Shown here: positions 5,815 to 12,505 of the stretch, piece after piece | Position numbering within the stretch: the first letter of the stretch is position 1 | Layout: every line of letters begins with the position of its first letter | Source of the DNA: Candidatus Parcubacteria bacterium | GTDB taxonomy: Bacteria > Patescibacteriota > Minisyncoccia > Phycocordibacterales > UBA1006 | Length of the DNA stretch: 12,677 bases | Assembly: GCA_027028225.1 (NCBI GenBank) | Contig: JALVJP010000031.1 | Coordinates: 1-12,677 of the forward strand | Reading direction: 5' to 3' | The notes under the pieces: model-generated | What the model was told of the DNA's origin: nothing | What the model saw: only the letters and a program-made list of their open reading frames with translations | Databases searched by the model: none | Position numbers and translations under genes: made by a program

Positions 5815-5876
5815 GGCGGGCGAGTGCGTATGCACTCGCCCGCCTCTCAAAAGAAACTGCTTTGCAGTTTCTTTTG
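5815..5876. repeat. Paired hairpins: GC-rich stem followed by A-rich stem
   Basis: A perfect 13-bp GC-rich stem (5815-5827/5832-5844, loop GTAT) is followed by a perfect 13-bp A-rich stem (5848-5860/5864-5876, loop TTT). The second stem ends in CTTTTG, and TC follows, directly before the 101-bp element. Confidence 0.85.
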
Positions 5877-5878
5877 TC

Positions 5879-5979
5879 GGTGACACCACTTTTGCAACTT
5901 GTTCCAGTGCATAACTCAAGACGAGTACGCATTTACTTTCACTAACCACTTAGAATGAAAGAGCAAAAGCGGTGTCACC
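5879..5979 (+). mobile_element. 101-bp element with 17-bp terminal inverted repeats, copy 1
   Basis: The ends are GGTGACACCACTTTTGC (5879-5895) and GCAAAAGCGGTGTCACC (5963-5979), inverted repeats with one difference that still allows a G-U pair in RNA. The second copy (9562-9662) is also exactly 101 bp and agrees at about 84 of 101 positions by eye, most differences being transitions. There is no coding capacity. It could be a non-autonomous mobile element (MITE-like) or a structured RNA. No target-site duplication is evident. Both copies are preceded by TTTTGTC and followed by CCAG. Confidence 0.65.
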
Positions 5980-6069
5980 CCAGCAACCCCTCACACAATC
6001 ATCTTTTGTGTGAGGGGTCATTCCGGACTCGATCCGGGATCTAAAAAACCCGCGCGCTTTCTTCTCCCT

Positions 6070-6191
6070 GTCATTCCCGTACCCGCCTACGCGAGCACAG
6101 GCTCCAGCGGGAATCCAGAGAATAAGTACATTGTTTGTTTACTCACACGAAGTGGTGTTACTTCTGGATTCCCAATCAAGTTGGGAATGAC
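6070..6191 (-). repeat. Composite repeat unit B (122 bp, inverted)
   Basis: The 49-nt palindrome (6070-6118) is followed by the reverse complement of the conserved spacer (ACTCACACGAAGTGGTGTTA) and the palindrome ATTCCCAA-TCAAG-TTGGGAAT (6168-6188), ending GAC. It has the same length as unit A, in the opposite orientation. Confidence 0.8.
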
Positions 6192-6466
6192 GAGGTGGTG
6201 GTTTGGGAATGACAAAGCACAAAGTGCTTTGTCTAAAGCGGGGCGAGCGTAATTTTACGCCACCCCGCTGTCATTCCCGTACCCGCCTACGCGGGCACAG
6301 GCTCCAGAGGGAATCCAGGAACATTACTACTTCCGTAAGCAAACCACTTTGTCACCACCGACTTCGATTGGGGACCCAGCAAAGGAGAAGTAGTGATTTC
6401 AGCACCACCGCTATTCAAAATATTCATCCGTAATATACCTTTTGAAACATTTTTAAAAAACTTAAC

Positions 6467-6528: not shown

Positions 6529-8148
6529 ATGAAACCAAAGATGAAACAACAAATTACGCATTTTCTCATTTCCTTTGTGGCAACTCTCGTTTTGCTTGTT
6601 GGAGTCCAGGTTGGATCTGCTACGAATGGAAATATCTTAGGTCTATCAGGAAGGTTTTATCATCACATTTCCCTAAAACCGTTTCTTTCTTCTGATAATT
6701 CTCTCCCGACAAAGATAGGTTCGCTCATCCTTAAAGACTTTGGGGGAGGAACACACTCATTCCTTTTAGGAAATAGCACATACCGTAATCGATGTATTTC
6801 TCACAAGGAGGGAGCGGAAAAAGAAACATGTCTTGAAGTTACAAAGAGTGATGGCTTAGGGTATGGATTTTTCAATCTCCTTTCTGCACTCGATAATAAC
6901 AGTCAACAGATGGTTACAGTCGCAAATGGAAGTGCTTCAAGCGGGGGCGTTGTGGTTGAACCTTTTACCTTAAATAGTTCTTCATCCTCACGACTTGCTC
7001 ATGCAGATTTTATTGAAGAGCAGTTTAGTGACGGAAATGATTCGATGCTCATTTCTTCTCTTGCGTTGAAAGGGACAAATGGAGATTTTGCACCGAGTGA
7101 TCCAAATCGTCTCCGCCCGGTATGTGCGGATTCACAAGGAATGCTTACCACAGATTGCGGAACAACAGCGACATATACTTGTTCAGGTTCTATTACAAAT
7201 GGACAAATGTGTTCTGGGGATGATCAAAATCTCACACAAAATGGAACATGGCATGCAGTAGAAAACTGTGGAGCAGATAAATGTGAATACACCTGTGATA
7301 CTGGATATCATGAAGACAATGGATCATGTGTCGCTGATGCGACTTACCATTGGGAGACAGGAGATTGGGGAAATTGTGAATCTACTGGTATGTGTCAGGG
7401 AACTCTTTCAGGACATTGTGCAGGAAGTGGATATCGTTATTATTATGATTATGTTTGTTACAATCATGATTGTCAATGTGTTGAAAGAAGAACATATTGT
7501 TCAGGTTTAGAATCAGGTAACTGTAATTTCCATGTGAGTGGTAGTATTACATTGAGATTACTTTCTCCATTCGTAAAACGCGCTTACGCTGCTGCTGAAA
7601 ATAATGGTCGTGATGGTAATGGATGTCTGTTACCTGGTGCGTACGGAGCTTGTCATTGGGTAAATGCTGATTGTTCAATTAAAAATGGAACGAGCGAGAG
7701 TGAGTGTGAAAGTTATAATAGTGCTTGTTCTTGGTCTCCTGGTGATACAGTAAGAACGCGCGATGTCTGGTGTGAAGATCAAAACGGAACTCCTGTTGCG
7801 GATTCAAATTGTGATGCGAATACACGACCACAGGAGACAGAAAGTTGTAGTACAGGAATAACATTGAAATGTTTTACTGGAATTTGGGAGGAAAATGATT
7901 CTCTTCATAGTGGTGGAGGTTCTGTTGATTATGTGTTACATGGAAACCAAGAGCATGTGGATCATCTATGGTCTGGACATAAATATCGTATAACCTACGA
8001 CAACAATACTACTCTCACAACAACGGGAGTGTATGAAGTAAGATGTGGACATAATTGTAATCTCTATATTGAGGATGCGTGTGGAGTAGGAACACATTGT
8101 TGTGGAAATGGAAGTTGTGCTCCGGATGGTGTAAATTGTACCGTGTAA
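6529..8148 (+). CDS. Secreted cysteine-rich protein with thrombospondin type 1-like modules
   Basis: The 539-residue product has an N-terminal signal sequence (hydrophobic core FLISFVATLVLLVGVQV, likely cleavage after GSA near residue 31) and 34 cysteines, nearly all beyond residue 195, so it is probably exported and disulfide-bonded. Residues ~217-268 look like a small Cys module of EGF or sushi type (CEYTCDTGYHEDNGSC). Residues ~270-325 begin with WETGDWGNC, like a thrombospondin type 1 start, and residues ~405-441 (TRDVWCEDQNGTPVADSN, later RPQETESC) resemble the second half of such a repeat. The C terminus is CCGNGSCAPDGVNCTV. The N-terminal 190 residues are Ser- and Asn-rich and unrecognised. 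Residues 344-357 (LLSPFVKRAYAAA) look like the end of a signal peptide inside the protein, so a past fusion is possible. An adhesin or surface role is inferred. Confidence 0.8.
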   Translation: MKPKMKQQITHFLISFVATLVLLVGVQVGSATNGNILGLSGRFYHHISLKPFLSSDNSLPTKIGSLILKDFGGGTHSFLLGNSTYRNRCISHKEGAEKETCLEVTKSDGLGYGFFNLLSALDNNSQQMVTVANGSASSGGVVVEPFTLNSSSSSRLAHADFIEEQFSDGNDSMLISSLALKGTNGDFAPSDPNRLRPVCADSQGMLTTDCGTTATYTCSGSITNGQMCSGDDQNLTQNGTWHAVENCGADKCEYTCDTGYHEDNGSCVADATYHWETGDWGNCESTGMCQGTLSGHCAGSGYRYYYDYVCYNHDCQCVERRTYCSGLESGNCNFHVSGSITLRLLSPFVKRAYAAAENNGRDGNGCLLPGAYGACHWVNADCSIKNGTSESECESYNSACSWSPGDTVRTRDVWCEDQNGTPVADSNCDANTRPQETESCSTGITLKCFTGIWEENDSLHSGGGSVDYVLHGNQEHVDHLWSGHKYRITYDNNTTLTTTGVYEVRCGHNCNLYIEDACGVGTHCCGNGSCAPDGVNCTV

Positions 8149-8590: not shown

Positions 8591-9409
8591 ATGAGCGAGA
8601 AGAATACACAAGTAAAAGACATTGTCGTTGTTAGTGGAAAAGATAAAAGGACACTTACTCTACCTTCCTCTACTACGAATCTTCACAAAATCGTTCGCGC
8701 GCTTTATTTCATTGCACGTAATATAGACGATAGAGAACTTGCTTCTTCGTTAAAGAAGAATGCAATGGGTATATCTGAATATACTTATACCTTTTTTCGT
8801 GCGAGTGGTGGGGATGTAAAAGACATTCTTTTTCGTAAAATTACATTTACTCTCGATGAGATTCAACTCTCTCTTAAGCTTCTTTTTGAAGAAGGGTGGC
8901 TTACAGATTTACAGCGAAATCTATTTCAAAGAGAACTCACACAATTCAACGCTCTATTAGGGGAGTTATCTACCAATACAAAAGATAAGATGGGAGAAGA
9001 ATCAACGCTTCTCTCTCCGATTGATTTGTCATCTTTTTTCTCTCACCAAGAAGAACAGAAAGAGGTTGATACGGAGCGGAACACAGAGCGAGATATATCC
9101 ACCTCTTCGATAAAGAAACATCGTAAGAGTGAGACATCAAATAAAATTACAAAGGATAATAGCGGTAGCAGTAAGAAAGCAAATAAAATTCGTTCAGTAC
9201 GCAAAGATACTCTCAAAAAAGAAGAGCGAAAGAAAGCAATTCTTGTTCATCTTCGAAAAAAAGAATCTTGTTCGCTCCCTGAGATTGCAGCTCTGTTTGA
9301 TGGAGCGGGACAGAAAACAATCCAGAGAGATCTTCGTGAGCTCATTTCCCAAGGCCTTGTTGAAAAAGAAGGGGAACGAAGATGGGCGAAGTATAGAGTT
9401 GTAGATTAA
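8591..9409 (+). CDS. Putative transcription regulator: helical N-terminal domain plus C-terminal DeoR-like winged helix
   Basis: The 272-residue product has three parts. Residues ~25-128 are predicted helices (NLHKIVRALYFIARNIDD, then EIQLSLKLLFEEGWLTDL), faintly resembling the four-helix-bundle S23 family; that link is weak. Residues ~150-210 are a polar Lys/Ser/Glu-rich linker. Residues ~210-268 form a winged helix: ERKKAILVHLRKK, SLPEIAALFDGAGQKTIQRD, LRELISQGLVEKEGE. The recognition helix pattern TIQRDLRELISQGLVEK is close to DeoR-family HTH domains, although DeoR proteins carry it at the N terminus. It probably binds DNA; target and ligand are unknown. The gene is a single unit with its own promoter and a strong terminator at 9442. 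MSEKN at 8591 is a good start, though there is no Shine-Dalgarno sequence. Confidence 0.75.
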   Translation: MSEKNTQVKDIVVVSGKDKRTLTLPSSTTNLHKIVRALYFIARNIDDRELASSLKKNAMGISEYTYTFFRASGGDVKDILFRKITFTLDEIQLSLKLLFEEGWLTDLQRNLFQRELTQFNALLGELSTNTKDKMGEESTLLSPIDLSSFFSHQEEQKEVDTERNTERDISTSSIKKHRKSETSNKITKDNSGSSKKANKIRSVRKDTLKKEERKKAILVHLRKKESCSLPEIAALFDGAGQKTIQRDLRELISQGLVEKEGERRWAKYRVVD

Positions 9410-9441
9410 ATACATATATAGAGGAGAAAAGGACATATTAA

Positions 9442-9481
9442 AAAATGGGCGGGGCGTAGTTTACTACGCCCCGCCCATTTT
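9442..9481 (+). terminator. Terminator of the winged-helix gene, longest GC-rich hairpin
   Basis: A perfect 19-bp stem (9442-9460 with 9463-9481) has a GC-rich centre, AAAAT on the left and ATTTT on the right, so it can terminate in both directions. It belongs to the GC-rich hairpin family of the repeat islands. Confidence 0.8.
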
Positions 9482-9561
9482 CCTTATAAAGGACATCTTA
9501 TTTATTACTCCCTGTATTCATTCCGTCACCCTCATAAAAAAGACACAATACATTTTTTGTC

Positions 9562-9662
9562 GGTGACACCACTTTTGCAACTTATTTCAGTGCATAACTC
9601 AAAGTGAGTGCGCATTTACTTTCACGAATTATCTGACACAAAAGAGCAAAAGTGGTGTCACC
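9562..9662 (+). mobile_element. 101-bp element with 17-bp terminal inverted repeats, copy 2
   Basis: The ends GGTGACACCACTTTTGC (9562-9578) and GCAAAAGTGGTGTCACC (9646-9662) are perfect inverted repeats. The interior contains a small hairpin ACTCA-AAG-TGAGT (9597-9609) that copy 1 keeps as 4 bp. TTTTTGTC precedes it and CCAG follows, as for copy 1. The following bases to about 9700 (AACCACTTTCGCAGGCAAAC) resemble the spacer after the palindrome at 6270-6318. Confidence 0.65.
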
Positions 9663-9783
9663 CCAGTAAACGAACCACTTTCGCAGGCAAACCGCTTTAC
9701 ATTCATGAACCACACAAATTTGACAAAAACCCAAAAATCATTGCATTTCACTTTTCTCTGTAAGACTTTCTGCTTTCTCTCGT

Positions 9784-9789
9784 TATAAT
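9784..9789 (+). promoter_or_regulatory. Consensus -10 box ahead of the structured RNA
   Basis: TATAAT is the only perfect -10 hexamer noted in the window. There is no clear -35 box at 16-18 nt. A perfect TTGACA lies at 9720-9725, too far away to pair with it. Transcription would start near 9796. Confidence 0.6.
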
Positions 9790-9795
9790 AGATGA

Positions 9796-10132
9796 ACTGC
9801 AAATGCGGTGGAATTGCAGTCGCGCACCTCGCGTGCATCCGCAAGTTGCTTTCTACGAGCAGTCTTGTCACTTCTCAAAGAAGTGTTACACTGCATTTCG
9901 TAGTTAGCAATAACTACCTCGGCTCTTACGAGTCGAGTATTCCACTCACCGCGCGCAATGCGCAGGGTTTGTGTCGATGAACCCGTGAGTGGGCGGTTCT
10001 CTTGAAGCGCACGAGAGGACCGTGTGCGCTTGAGGTCACGTCGAAACCGACCGATGCACGAATTATTTATACCCCTTATATCGATGAAAAGGATTATGAG
10101 TTATTATTCGTTTTGTTTCTCATCAAAAGGGG
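9796..10132 (+). ncRNA. Unidentified structured RNA, or long structured leader of the S-layer-like gene
   Basis: This GC-richer stretch has no good reading frame but dense pairing. Helices seen: 9796-9802/9814-9820; long-range 9833-9839/10053-10059; 9859-9863/9890-9894 with 9869-9874/9880-9885 inside; 9900-9906/9911-9917 closed by a GCAA tetraloop; 9920-9925/9930-9935 closed by TTAC; a three-way junction of 9942-9949/9985-9992 enclosing 9953-9956/9960-9963 and 9965-9969/9980-9984; and 10005-10012/10024-10031. TCTC at 9998-10001 can pair with GAGA at 10013-10016 to make an H-type pseudoknot with the last helix. A further hairpin spans 10072-10132. Signatures of RNase P RNA, SRP RNA and tmRNA were looked for and not found. 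No strong terminator separates it from the gene at 10198, so it may be a leader of about 400 nt. Confidence 0.6.
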
Positions 10133-10134
10133 AA

Positions 10135-10162
10135 TAAATAAATTTTTATAAAAATTTATTTA
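10135..10162. repeat. 28-bp perfect A/T palindrome before the S-layer-like gene
   Basis: The sequence is exactly self-complementary over 28 bp and only A and T. It lies 35 bp before the ATG at 10198. It could be a weak terminator on either strand, an mRNA hairpin near the start codon, or a protein-binding site. Confidence 0.6.
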
Positions 10163-10197
10163 CAAATTTAGTAAATCAAACAGATAGAAAAGACATT

Positions 10198-12042
10198 ATG
10201 AAAAAATTAGTAATGACAACAGTTGTTACCGCTGCAGCATTTGCTGCTAGCTTCGCAGCTGCTGCAACATTCACTTATGACTACACACTCCGTTACGGAA
10301 TGAATGGGTCAGAAGTAACAGAGTTGCAAAATTGTCTTAACTCAATCAGCTACCATGTTGGATATGCTGATGGAATGTTCGGAAACATGACATACGCAGG
10401 AGTTAAGGCATTCCAAACAGACCACTCACTCACACCTGATGGGATTGTAGGGCCAATGACAGGAGCTGCTCTTGAAACAGCATGTAATGGTTCTACAACT
10501 ACAACCACAACTACAACAGGATCTTCAGACGAAGCTCTCTGTCCTAACGGAATGACAATTGCAAGCAATTGTACAACCGCTCCAGCAGGATCTTCATCAG
10601 ACGAAGCTCTCTGTCCAAATGGAATGACAGTTGCAAGTAACTGTACAGCTGCACCAGGAGCGTCAACTTCAACAGTTACCTCAACAGAAGAAGCAGACCT
10701 TTCTGTTTCAGATATTGATTCAGGAGACGACCTTGATGCTGACAAAGACGGACAAAAAGCTTTCTCAGTAGAGATTGAAGCTGACGAAGATGGTGGTGAT
10801 GCTGCTATCGAACGAATGGATCTTTCATTTGAAATCACCCCTAAAACTGGAGGAGAAGAAGATCTCTATGACATTATCAAAAAGGTAACTCTTGAAGTGA
10901 ACGGAGAAGAAGTTGCTTCTAAAGTAACAACTGACGATGATGACTGGAGAAATCTTGATAATTCAGACAAAACAGGGGAAATCCGACTTTCAGGATTTAA
11001 CACTGTTGTGAAGTCAGACGAAAAGGTTACCTTTGATGTAATTCTTGACATCGATGATCTTGACGATACTGATGATCTCTCACTTGACATTGCACTTACA
11101 GGTGTTGAAGCACGATATGTTGATGGTGCGGGAATTGTTGATCTCGTTTCTGCTACTTCAACAAAGAAAGTTTCTGTAACACCTGTTGGAGCTTTTGATA
11201 TGACTTTCAAAGAGGATAACTCATCACCAGATGATAATGCTGCTCTCGACCTTTCAAGTTCAATTTCTAAGGAAAAACTTGTTGTGGTTGAAGCAGAGAC
11301 AGCAGATACACAAGATGGAGTTCTCAAGAGGGGAGAAGTAACTCTTGAAATTACGAATGTAAATACTACAGATGATTTCAATGCAGATGATCTCATCAGT
11401 AAACTTTACTTCTACATTGATGGAGAAAAGATTGATGATACAGATGTTGATACTGCTGTTGCTCATGGTGGTACTGCTGTTCCTGTTACCTATACTTTCG
11501 ATCTTGATGACTATGCGGTTAATAAAGACACAAAGTATGAATTTGCAGTTAAGGCAGACTTCAAGGAAGTTGAATCAACTGACGCTATGCTTGGGGCTCA
11601 AGTAAAGGTTACATCTATTAAGGTTGAAGGAGAGAGCGATGATAATGAAGACTTTGGTCCATTAACAGCTGATACTTCTTCATACGCACCAGTATTTACT
11701 GCAACAGCTGGAAATCTTACCGCTGATGTAACAGACCTTGTAAAATACGAAGGGTCAATTGATAATGCGGGAACAGTTGAATTTACAGTAACTGTATCAA
11801 ACGATACAGGAGCTCAAATTTCTGTTGATCCTGCTGATTGGACATTCGATGTACATGGTGTAGGAGGAATTGATTATTCAAGTTCTAATTATCATGTATA
11901 TGATGCAGGAACAACTACTGATGCATCAACATTAGATGATGGTGAAACTGCAGAATATGATGTAATCATTCCTTACACATCAGTTTCAACAGAAGACCTT
12001 AGTGTTGATGTTGAAAGTATCGATGGAATTACAGTTGCGTAA
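10198..12042 (+). CDS. Putative S-layer protein with N-terminal peptidoglycan-binding domain
   Basis: The 614-residue product begins with a clear signal peptide (MKKLVMTTVVTAAAFAASFA, cleavage near AAA at 20-23). A PG_binding_1-type domain follows at about residues 30-97 (LRYGMNGSEVTELQNCLN, GYADGMFGNMTYAGVKAFQ, PDGIVGPMTGAAL), expected to bind cell-wall peptidoglycan. Next come a Thr-rich linker, two near-identical 23-residue Cys repeats (DEALCPNGMT..ASNC, residues 109-156), and about 455 very acidic residues rich in Asp, Thr, Ser and Val that look like successive beta-sandwich domains (e.g. KVTFDVILDIDDL, YEFAVKADFKEV). Signal peptide, wall-binding domain and acidic beta-rich body match proteins proposed as S-layer subunits in Patescibacteria; the family assignment is inferred. 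The start is unambiguous. There is only a weak ribosome binding site. A structured leader may control expression. A terminator follows at 12087. Confidence 0.85.
   Translation: MKKLVMTTVVTAAAFAASFAAAATFTYDYTLRYGMNGSEVTELQNCLNSISYHVGYADGMFGNMTYAGVKAFQTDHSLTPDGIVGPMTGAALETACNGSTTTTTTTTGSSDEALCPNGMTIASNCTTAPAGSSSDEALCPNGMTVASNCTAAPGASTSTVTSTEEADLSVSDIDSGDDLDADKDGQKAFSVEIEADEDGGDAAIERMDLSFEITPKTGGEEDLYDIIKKVTLEVNGEEVASKVTTDDDDWRNLDNSDKTGEIRLSGFNTVVKSDEKVTFDVILDIDDLDDTDDLSLDIALTGVEARYVDGAGIVDLVSATSTKKVSVTPVGAFDMTFKEDNSSPDDNAALDLSSSISKEKLVVVEAETADTQDGVLKRGEVTLEITNVNTTDDFNADDLISKLYFYIDGEKIDDTDVDTAVAHGGTAVPVTYTFDLDDYAVNKDTKYEFAVKADFKEVESTDAMLGAQVKVTSIKVEGESDDNEDFGPLTADTSSYAPVFTATAGNLTADVTDLVKYEGSIDNAGTVEFTVTVSNDTGAQISVDPADWTFDVHGVGGIDYSSSNYHVYDAGTTTDASTLDDGETAEYDVIIPYTSVSTEDLSVDVESIDGITVA
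10522..10659 (+). repeat. In-frame tandem repeat coding for the Cys module
   Basis: Two 69-bp units (10522-10590 and 10591-10659) encode SSDEALCPNGMT..ASNC modules. They are nearly identical in DNA, suggesting a recent duplication or slippage. Copy number may vary between strains. Confidence 0.8.
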
Positions 12043-12116: not shown

Positions 12117-12264
12117 ATGAGAAGGGGGCAAGCGGAGCGGATAAGATTATCCGCTCCGCTTTGTAAAAAGGTTCTATGGATTTCGGCTTGTTTCGGAATG
12201 GAAGCAGGGGCGAGAGCAAAGCTCTCGCCCCTGCTTCACAAGAAAAATGCTTTGTATTTTTCTT

Positions 12265-12395
12265 GTCACTCCGCACTTGACCTGCCACTCACACAGGTTT
12301 TGTGTGAATGGTGCGGGGTCCAGAAGTGTCACCACTTACCTCACGAGAACAGACAATGTGCTTACTCTCTAGATTCCCGCTTTCGCGGGAATGAC
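12265..12395 (+). repeat. Composite repeat unit D with a nested hairpin
   Basis: The left palindrome has arms CTCCGCAC and GTGCGGGGT, split by an inserted hairpin (TCACAC..TGTGTGA), then CCAG, the spacer (ACCACTTACCTCACGAG, later CAATGTGCTTACTCTCT) and an exact ATTCCC-N8-GGGAAT palindrome (12373-12392). The inserted hairpin resembles those at 5987-6017 and 8463-8490. Confidence 0.7.
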
Positions 12396-12435
12396 AAGGA
12401 GAAGAGAAGCGGGAATGACAAGGAGAAGAGAAGCG
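12388..12435 (+). repeat. Two tandem copies of a 24-bp unit
   Basis: The unit GGGAATGACAAGGAGAAGAG plus AAGC occurs twice in tandem, with a third start (GGGAATG) after it. The same sequence occurs once at 8364-8392. It looks like a duplication of one arm of the palindrome plus its flank. Confidence 0.85.
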
Positions 12436-12505
12436 GGAATGGCAGATGAGGAAGGGATGTAAAATGACAGCGAAGTGAGGATGGAATCCTCACTTCGCCC
12501 CCATC

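Follow-up and report, generated by a model that had tools for sequence, protein, structure and literature searches.

The window analysed in the present work is a stretch of 12,677 nt from the genome of a Candidatus Parcubacteria bacterium, which is available as a draft of 557 kb in 113 contigs (the window lies on contig C31). Two forward-strand genes, F1 and a gene for a 614 amino acid (aa) protein, are separated here by 788 nt without a convincing open reading frame (ORF), and this interval contains the RNA described below. The downstream gene probably encodes a secreted-type surface protein, as judged from the secretion-signal-like start and the PG_binding_1 match of its predicted product, and S-layer-like is used as a putative label for it. 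The whole leader extends to the start codon of this gene at 10198; its conserved part ends 36 nt earlier with a perfect palindrome. Several other features are found nearby. A MITE-like repeat of ~100–130 bp, whose terminal inverted repeats are 17 nt long and perfect (9562–9578/9646–9662), is present at 9550–9680, again at 5872–5986 and at 13621–13731 of contig C31; it gives 30 matches in the 557-kb genome at 18 separate places, itself counted and two of them short. A 19-bp perfect inverted repeat with a 2-nt spacer (9442–9481) directly follows F1 and is possibly its terminator. At 6529–8148 lies a gene for 539 aa whose product begins like a signal peptide and matches the thrombospondin type-1 repeat, and the ORFs at 6010–6252 and 12117–12449 resemble translated intergenic repeats (strings of the SLDSRFRGNDK type) and are probably not genes.

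A DNA similarity search of 197 related genomes has identified one real relative of the region, G001, which is 89% identical; the other matches listed covered 15–57 nt only and were taken as chance. The remaining relatives in the genus were reached via the neighbouring surface-protein gene and then via the 26-nt palindrome, which, in a search permitting up to 2 mismatches, is present as a single copy with 0 mismatches in 10 of the 12 genomes of the genus and in none of the 185 relatives outside it. The two genomes counted as misses (G008 and G011) are assemblies that lack both F1 and the palindrome, and at 3 mismatches one extra site appears, in G010. When 84,980 genomes were searched for the exact sequence, 10 stretches were returned: nine belong to the other carriers of the genus, and the tenth, on a Neomarinimicrobiota contig (L079) without such a leader or surface gene, was taken as a chance match. 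In all 10 carriers F1 lies upstream of the leader, and the palindrome ends 17–36 nt 5' of the ATG of a secreted-type protein (the ATG of G001 was taken from the printed sequence, an N run interrupting the ORF there, and the surface gene of G002 and G009 runs off the contig), so that the expected synteny, i.e., a position directly before the surface gene, is seen throughout. The leaders 5' of the palindrome share a mean identity of 55% (40–90%), and their folding z-scores range from -6.1 to -11.1 (60 shuffles each). Seven of them (G003, G004, G005, G006, G007, G009, and G010) align well and are referred to as type B, and the other three (the window, G001, and G002) as type A. The features of the window are summarized in Table 1.

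Table 1. Genes, promoter candidates, and predicted RNA elements of the leader region (window coordinates).
Feature	Coordinates	Strand	Characteristics
F1, conserved neighbour gene	8591–9409	+	Predicted Avd/S23-like four-helix bundle (residues ~26–134) and C-terminal winged helix (~208–272)
P0, tentative upstream promoter, TTGACA	9720–9725	+	Weak, no good -10 seen
P1, TATAAT	9784–9789	+	Identical in G001
Two hairpins between P1 and P2	9796–9835	+	9796–9802/9814–9820; 9821–9825/9831–9835
P2, TTGTCA-16-TACACT	9865–9892	+	Predicted; extended -10 (TG)
H1	9900–9906/9911–9917	+	GCAA loop, in window's fold
H2	9918–9925/9930–9937	+	In window's fold
Three-way junction	9942–9992	+	Closing helix 9942–9949/9985–9992 around 9951–9954/9960–9963 and H4
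H4, distal GUCGA hairpin	9965–9984	+	GTCGA 9973–9977; compensatory change in G001
H5	9993–10023	+	GCGC in loop, invariant in 10 genomes; 10005–10012 may pair with 10024–10031 (pseudoknot)
H6, proximal GUCGA hairpin	10024–10059	+	Inner 10034–10037/10049–10052, outer 10024–10027/10056–10059, GTCGA 10040–10044
H7 (helix A)	10063–10141	+	10063–10070/10134–10141, 10072–10077/10127–10132, 10083–10087/10120–10124
Perfect palindrome, 26 nt, AAATAAATTTTTATAAAAATTTATTT	10136–10161	+	28 nt palindromic in window, 10135–10162
Surface-protein gene, 614 aa	10198–12042	+	Signal-peptide-like start (by reading); PG_binding_1 at residues 36–92

A first-pass annotation of this DNA had described a perfect TATAAT, which is present, followed by ~265 nt of highly structured RNA of no known class. 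The structure exceeds chance: the folding energy of 9794–10070 is -118 kcal/mol compared with -87.0 ± 5.6 kcal/mol for 200 shuffled sequences (z -5.56, no shuffle equal). The structured region is, however, larger than was proposed, as pairing continues into H7 and the palindrome, and for 9794–10197, up to the start codon, the corresponding values are -147.1 and -100.5 ± 5.3 (100 shuffles, z -8.72). The minimum-energy fold contains the annotated GCAA tetraloop (9907–9910) and the three-way junction with its closing helix and two inner hairpins, and the layout of this junction is also readable in G002 with unrelated letters (by reading). The first of the two hairpins between P1 and P2 is present in the fold of 9794–10070; the second was drawn by reading, its stem being kept with changes in G001, and the minimum-energy fold pairs that stretch long-range instead. 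Similarly, H6 was drawn by comparison with type B (helices 3–5), and the window's own best fold pairs the stretch differently. No match to Rfam 15 was obtained at gathering thresholds in the window, in the 10 loci of the genus, or in 20 loci of the order; at E ≤ 10 the window gave chance-level matches only (the best, RsaOG on the minus strand, reached 29.1 of 50 bits), and ARAGORN found no tRNA or tmRNA gene in it; the first-pass annotation had noted that RNase P, SRP, and tmRNA signatures are missing. The leader is a real, cis-positioned structured RNA without an Rfam match.

Three other elements of the annotation consist of strings that are exactly complementary in the window. The long-range helix 9833–9839/10053–10059 is unsupported, since it carries an uncompensated C.A mismatch in G001 (by reading), and its 3' segment is also able to form local pairs within hairpin 6. 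The H-type pseudoknot (9998–10001/10013–10016 with 10005–10012/10024–10031) is kept in G001 with one G-U pair, is shrunk to ~5 bp in G002, and no counterpart was noticed in the other seven relatives by a reading that was not systematic. The alternative fold 9804–9808/9839–9843, suggested to compete with the long-range helix, is likewise not conserved. Two structures that probably do exclude each other lie elsewhere, namely the helix 10063–10070/10134–10141 and the palindrome hairpin.

In single-sequence folds, all 10 leaders of the genus consist, after P2, of a row of hairpins followed by the long hairpin H7. The parts that are invariant in all ten are the GUCGA of both the H4 and the H6 loop, the GCGC of the H5 loop, some U-rich letters in the H7 loop, and the palindrome. 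The last 3' bases of H7 are also the 5' arm of the palindrome, and because of this shared foot the base of H7 and the palindrome hairpin are mutually exclusive. Compared with the best fold, forcing the palindrome hairpin costs 0–3.2 kcal/mol in the 10 genomes. In G005, G006, and G009 the palindrome is unchanged although its partner in H7 has drifted (by reading), so it is probably held by something besides H7. These observations are only suggestive of a switch, and it is doubtful, if conceivable, that one is in use.

The covariation that the first-pass annotation had named as a check is strong in the seven type-B relatives, which do not include the window's own sub-type. For the H4–H6 part of these sequences, and a 30-pair structure drawn from the same sequences, 90.3% of the cells are paired, compared with 75.0% after column shuffling and 36–41% with slid partners, and 20 of the 30 pairs have changes on both sides (10.3 in shuffled columns). 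The covariation score is 0.568 vs. 0.255, and none of 500 shuffles was as high. None of 1000 alignments simulated along the tree without a pairing constraint equalled the data, the highest values being 14 pairs and 19 cells where 20 and 36 were observed; the match of these simulations is inexact, the simulated alignments being more diverged than the real one (56% vs. 65% identity). RNAalifold, run without the drawn structure, predicted 46 pairs, of which 21 have changes on both sides and 11 are invariant palindrome pairs that are uninformative. The H4 counterpart is among the covarying parts, and a helix at columns 73–77/101–105 is only 74% paired, partly because the alignment misplaces G009 (by reading). 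Compensatory changes thus exceed both the column and the tree controls in type B. For type A, which comprises three sequences only, the predicted pairs of the window compared with G001 include 79 that are unchanged, 6 kept through one change, 2 kept through two changes, 2 broken, and 2 gapped; relatives of F1 (P0003–P0005) suggest that further type-A leaders exist. A covariance model built from type B did not recover the window up to E 10 (G002 scored E 0.018 and G001 E 4.5), and with stricter filters its 7 matches among the 197 relatives were all training members, with none outside the genus; this model (R1) was therefore rejected as a general detector of such leaders, being specific for sub-type B. 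Taken together, the comparisons indicate that the region almost certainly represents a conserved structured leader RNA.

Three promoter candidates, all of them predictions from sequence, precede or lie within the leader. P1 is the TATAAT named in the first-pass annotation; it is not the sole candidate, since each of the 10 carrier genomes retains the -10 region of P2 in the form GTGnTA[CG]A[AC]T. As a single-sequence match P2 is at chance level (2 sites found vs. 1.8 expected). The position of P0 resembles that of the box promoter of other genera, which is described below. Upstream of P2, an inverted-repeat block CTGTAAT...ATATACAG is kept in most genomes of the genus (~310–410 nt 5' of the palindrome in G003, G004, G007, and G010), and could be a further promoter or a first hairpin.

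The protein F1 was matched in 166 of the 197 relatives, and its profile matched 146 of 286 genomes of the class; it persists at loci without an adjacent leader. Five Pfam models match F1 at E ≤ 0.01, all in its C-terminal part (HTH_DeoR at 5.4e-6), with no Avd/S23 family model among them, and nothing exceeded the cut-off in NCBIfam. The predicted fold of F1 matches the structures 4dwl, 8ub8, 2rld, and 2gsc near the level at which helical bundles can match by their arrangement, and the absence of other folds from the match list is no evidence against them. In comparison with these Avd (of diversity-generating retroelements, DGRs) and S23 bundles, F1 has ~16% identity and an attached winged helix. 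The Avd-type bundle is otherwise known, as we take it, from retroelement ribonucleoproteins.

To examine the leader outside the genus, 120 regions of the order lying 3' of F1 were hand-picked among the F1 matches listed. One was without an ORF; of the 119 parsed, 19 were dropped for having a next ORF that was shorter than 180 aa or on the opposite strand (such ORFs are often spurious ones within the gap), and a further 4 on account of their length or of N letters. A same-strand ORF of at least 180 aa is thus next in 100 of the 119 loci, and 96 were measurable, with a median noncoding gap of 634 nt; their start codons were chosen by a hydrophobicity rule and the ends are approximate. The 300 nt 5' of the start have a median z of -4.63 compared with -1.87 for coding controls from these same loci (Wilcoxon p 1e-13), and z ≤ -4 is found in 62 of the 96 leaders vs. 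10 of the 96 controls (25 shuffles each). Among the words enriched in the last 600 nt are TGTCGA (53 vs. 10.1 expected) and TTGTGTCGA (19 vs. 0.3). A palindrome near the start codon was rejected as an order-wide feature, as one of at least 16 nt occurs in 3 of the 96 loci vs. 2.0 in shuffles.

The pentamer GTCGA is present in the last 420 nt of 83 of the 96 order leaders, with 121 sense and 25 antisense sites. In single-sequence folds 87 of the 121 sites are in hairpin loops, which is the top number and fraction among all 5-mers with at least 25 sites (mean loop fraction 11.9%), and seven single-base variants of GTCGA are loop-bound in 0–20%. The sites form two groups at about -200 and -100 (-225 and -158 in the window), and their flanks give higher stem scores with their own than with swapped partners (17.2 vs. 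10.8 and 18.3 vs. 10.2); the corresponding difference among eight other words is 0.1–3.8, the largest being that of CGATG (13.3 vs. 9.5). No GTCGA is found in the last 420 nt of 13 of the 96 leaders, and none in a predicted loop in 29. In ~140 kb from the ten genomes of the genus, 23 of 155 sites lie in leaders, with a mean stem score of 14.0 compared with 10.1 elsewhere; a single site is not diagnostic because some non-leader sites score equal or higher. Kissing between loops through the self-complementary UCGA was considered and rejected, as at least 2 GTCGA loops are present in 19 of the 96 leaders, one in 48, and none in 29, and only 5 of the 48 single-loop leaders have another UCGA loop.

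From other orders of the class, 40 regions were hand-picked among the stronger F1-profile matches, and their ORFs were named by reading translations. In 24 of the 40 regions F1 is followed by a long surface-type ORF, and these contain GTCGA in 24 of 24 and the DnaA-box sequence in 23 of 24 cases, whereas in the 12 regions where F1 is followed by a galU-like ORF neither is found (0 of 12 for both), a contrast that is weakened because the gaps are short there (-4 to 238 nt). The remaining regions include three without an ORF and one (G349) in which the next ORF is ambiguous, with one box and one GTCGA. On the best reading of these sequences, the leader type spans this order of the Patescibacteria and other orders of its class.

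The box is the word TTATCCACA, whose letters presumably are those of the DnaA box consensus. The exact word is present in 75 of the 96 order gaps as one sense copy (one gap has an extra reverse copy), at a median of 441 nt 5' of the start codon, and the 8-mers TTATCCAC and TATCCACA each occur in the last 600 nt of 70 of the 96 loci with 0.8 expected, a figure that includes a pseudocount of 0.3. In a promoter scan, a -35/-10 pair lies behind the box in 51 of the 75 gaps (in 47 of them 6–11 nt behind), and L211, L177, and L122 provide examples of an exact box before the surface-gene promoter. In eight genomes there are 5–22 copies of the box vs. 3–13 of the reversed control word, with no excess over this word in G010 and G107. 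The 22 copies of G124 include one in the leader, four in one cluster, five within ORFs, and 12 elsewhere, some of the latter preceding pilin-like and ribonucleotide-reductase-like ORFs (names by reading). Among the 10 genomes of the genus the exact box is found in G005 only; the window's leader region has none, and a DnaA-box-like sequence with two mismatches, TGAACCACA, lies at 9706–9714. The box in the order gaps thus has the exact letters of a DnaA box on the sense strand, with a putative role; if it works, synthesis of the coat would be coupled to chromosome replication.

In our opinion, the region is reasonably probably a structured 5' leader that heads the mRNA of a secreted, S-layer-like surface protein, and is of a cis-acting type in which GUCGA is read in trans. 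Individual parts of this reading differ in strength: an action in cis on the downstream gene is very likely, and the chances that a specific factor reads the GUCGA loops are about even. The mechanism that we infer involves a loop-reading factor and the life-time or translation of the mRNA. RNA polymerase would start upstream, at P0, P1, or P2, and the leader would fold while emerging; a trans-acting factor would then read the tandem GUCGA loops and thereby set the life-time and/or the translation of the surface-protein mRNA, and the H7/palindrome alternative beside the start codon may be the output step in this genus. F1, with its Avd-like bundle and winged helix, would be the first candidate for this factor, an assignment that is tentative and on balance unlikely to be correct. 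A two-level unit of the Paceibacteria, in which a DnaA-box promoter ties the surface protein to replication and F1 binds the GUCGA leader, with a palindrome-hairpin switch in the genus, is decidedly improbable.

A row of stable hairpins could passively protect an abundant mRNA against nucleases without the help of a specific factor; very stable folds are indeed seen for all 10 leaders of the genus, and S-layer mRNAs are reported to be unusually long-lived in a review (PMC8056022). A shield, however, requires stems and not letters. Since GUCGA never varies among the 10 genomes of the genus, and of the frequent 5-mers in 96 other leaders is the one most often confined to loops, this explanation is rather unlikely. 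The upstream TATAAT and the self-contained fold of ~265 nt would also suit a stand-alone noncoding RNA that precedes the gene by coincidence, as the first-pass annotation had allowed. This is highly improbable: a simple scan of 9400–10300 found no terminator-like site, conserved sequence and pairing (H7 and the palindrome) reach to within 17–36 nt of the start codon, and the surface gene is next in all 10 carriers. The outcomes for Rfam, covariation, and synteny all favour a leader.

A riboswitch for a metabolite or ion is equally remote, given that no Rfam match was obtained and that the conserved letters are spread over separate hairpin loops rather than gathered in one pocket; the near-equal energies of the H7/palindrome alternatives and the conserved loops are what speak for it. 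The palindrome itself may be a DNA operator for a dimeric regulator, e.g., the winged helix of F1, with the RNA fold as a separate matter, and this would be compatible with the reading as a leader. Its two-fold symmetry is perfect, with 0 mismatches in 10 genomes whose flanks are ~55% identical, and it has persisted where its H7 partner drifted. It lies, however, inside the presumed transcript and away from the promoter candidates, and F1 is order-wide, whereas the palindrome was found only in the genus; an operator is thus possible but not the expected outcome.

For a cis-acting leader read through its loops, the covarying stems and fixed loop letters point to an undescribed RNA control element on a surface gene. 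Most Patescibacteria cannot be grown, and in our judgement their gene control has been little explored; a search of the literature, as far as its sources were accessible, found no report of an S-layer leader, or of its DnaA box, in the Patescibacteria. A leader class attached to a single surface-protein gene throughout an order may help to explain how the coat of these cells is controlled, in that it offers a loop code (GUCGA), a candidate binder (F1), and a sequence signature for locating the surface protein in uncultured genomes.

Two known systems provide useful comparisons. The targets of CsrA/RsmA are protein-binding leaders with tandem hairpins and the loop GGA, and the present leaders resemble them in the display of a short fixed loop sequence on several unrelated stems, but differ in that the loop is GUCGA and the binder putative. 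Long stable leaders also precede S-layer mRNAs in other bacteria, and the likeness to these consists of an untranslated head before an abundant surface-protein gene with a probable role in mRNA life-time. To our knowledge, such leaders have not been described as a family with fixed loops, whereas GUCGA hairpins and covarying stems are a recurrent feature of the present ones throughout the order.
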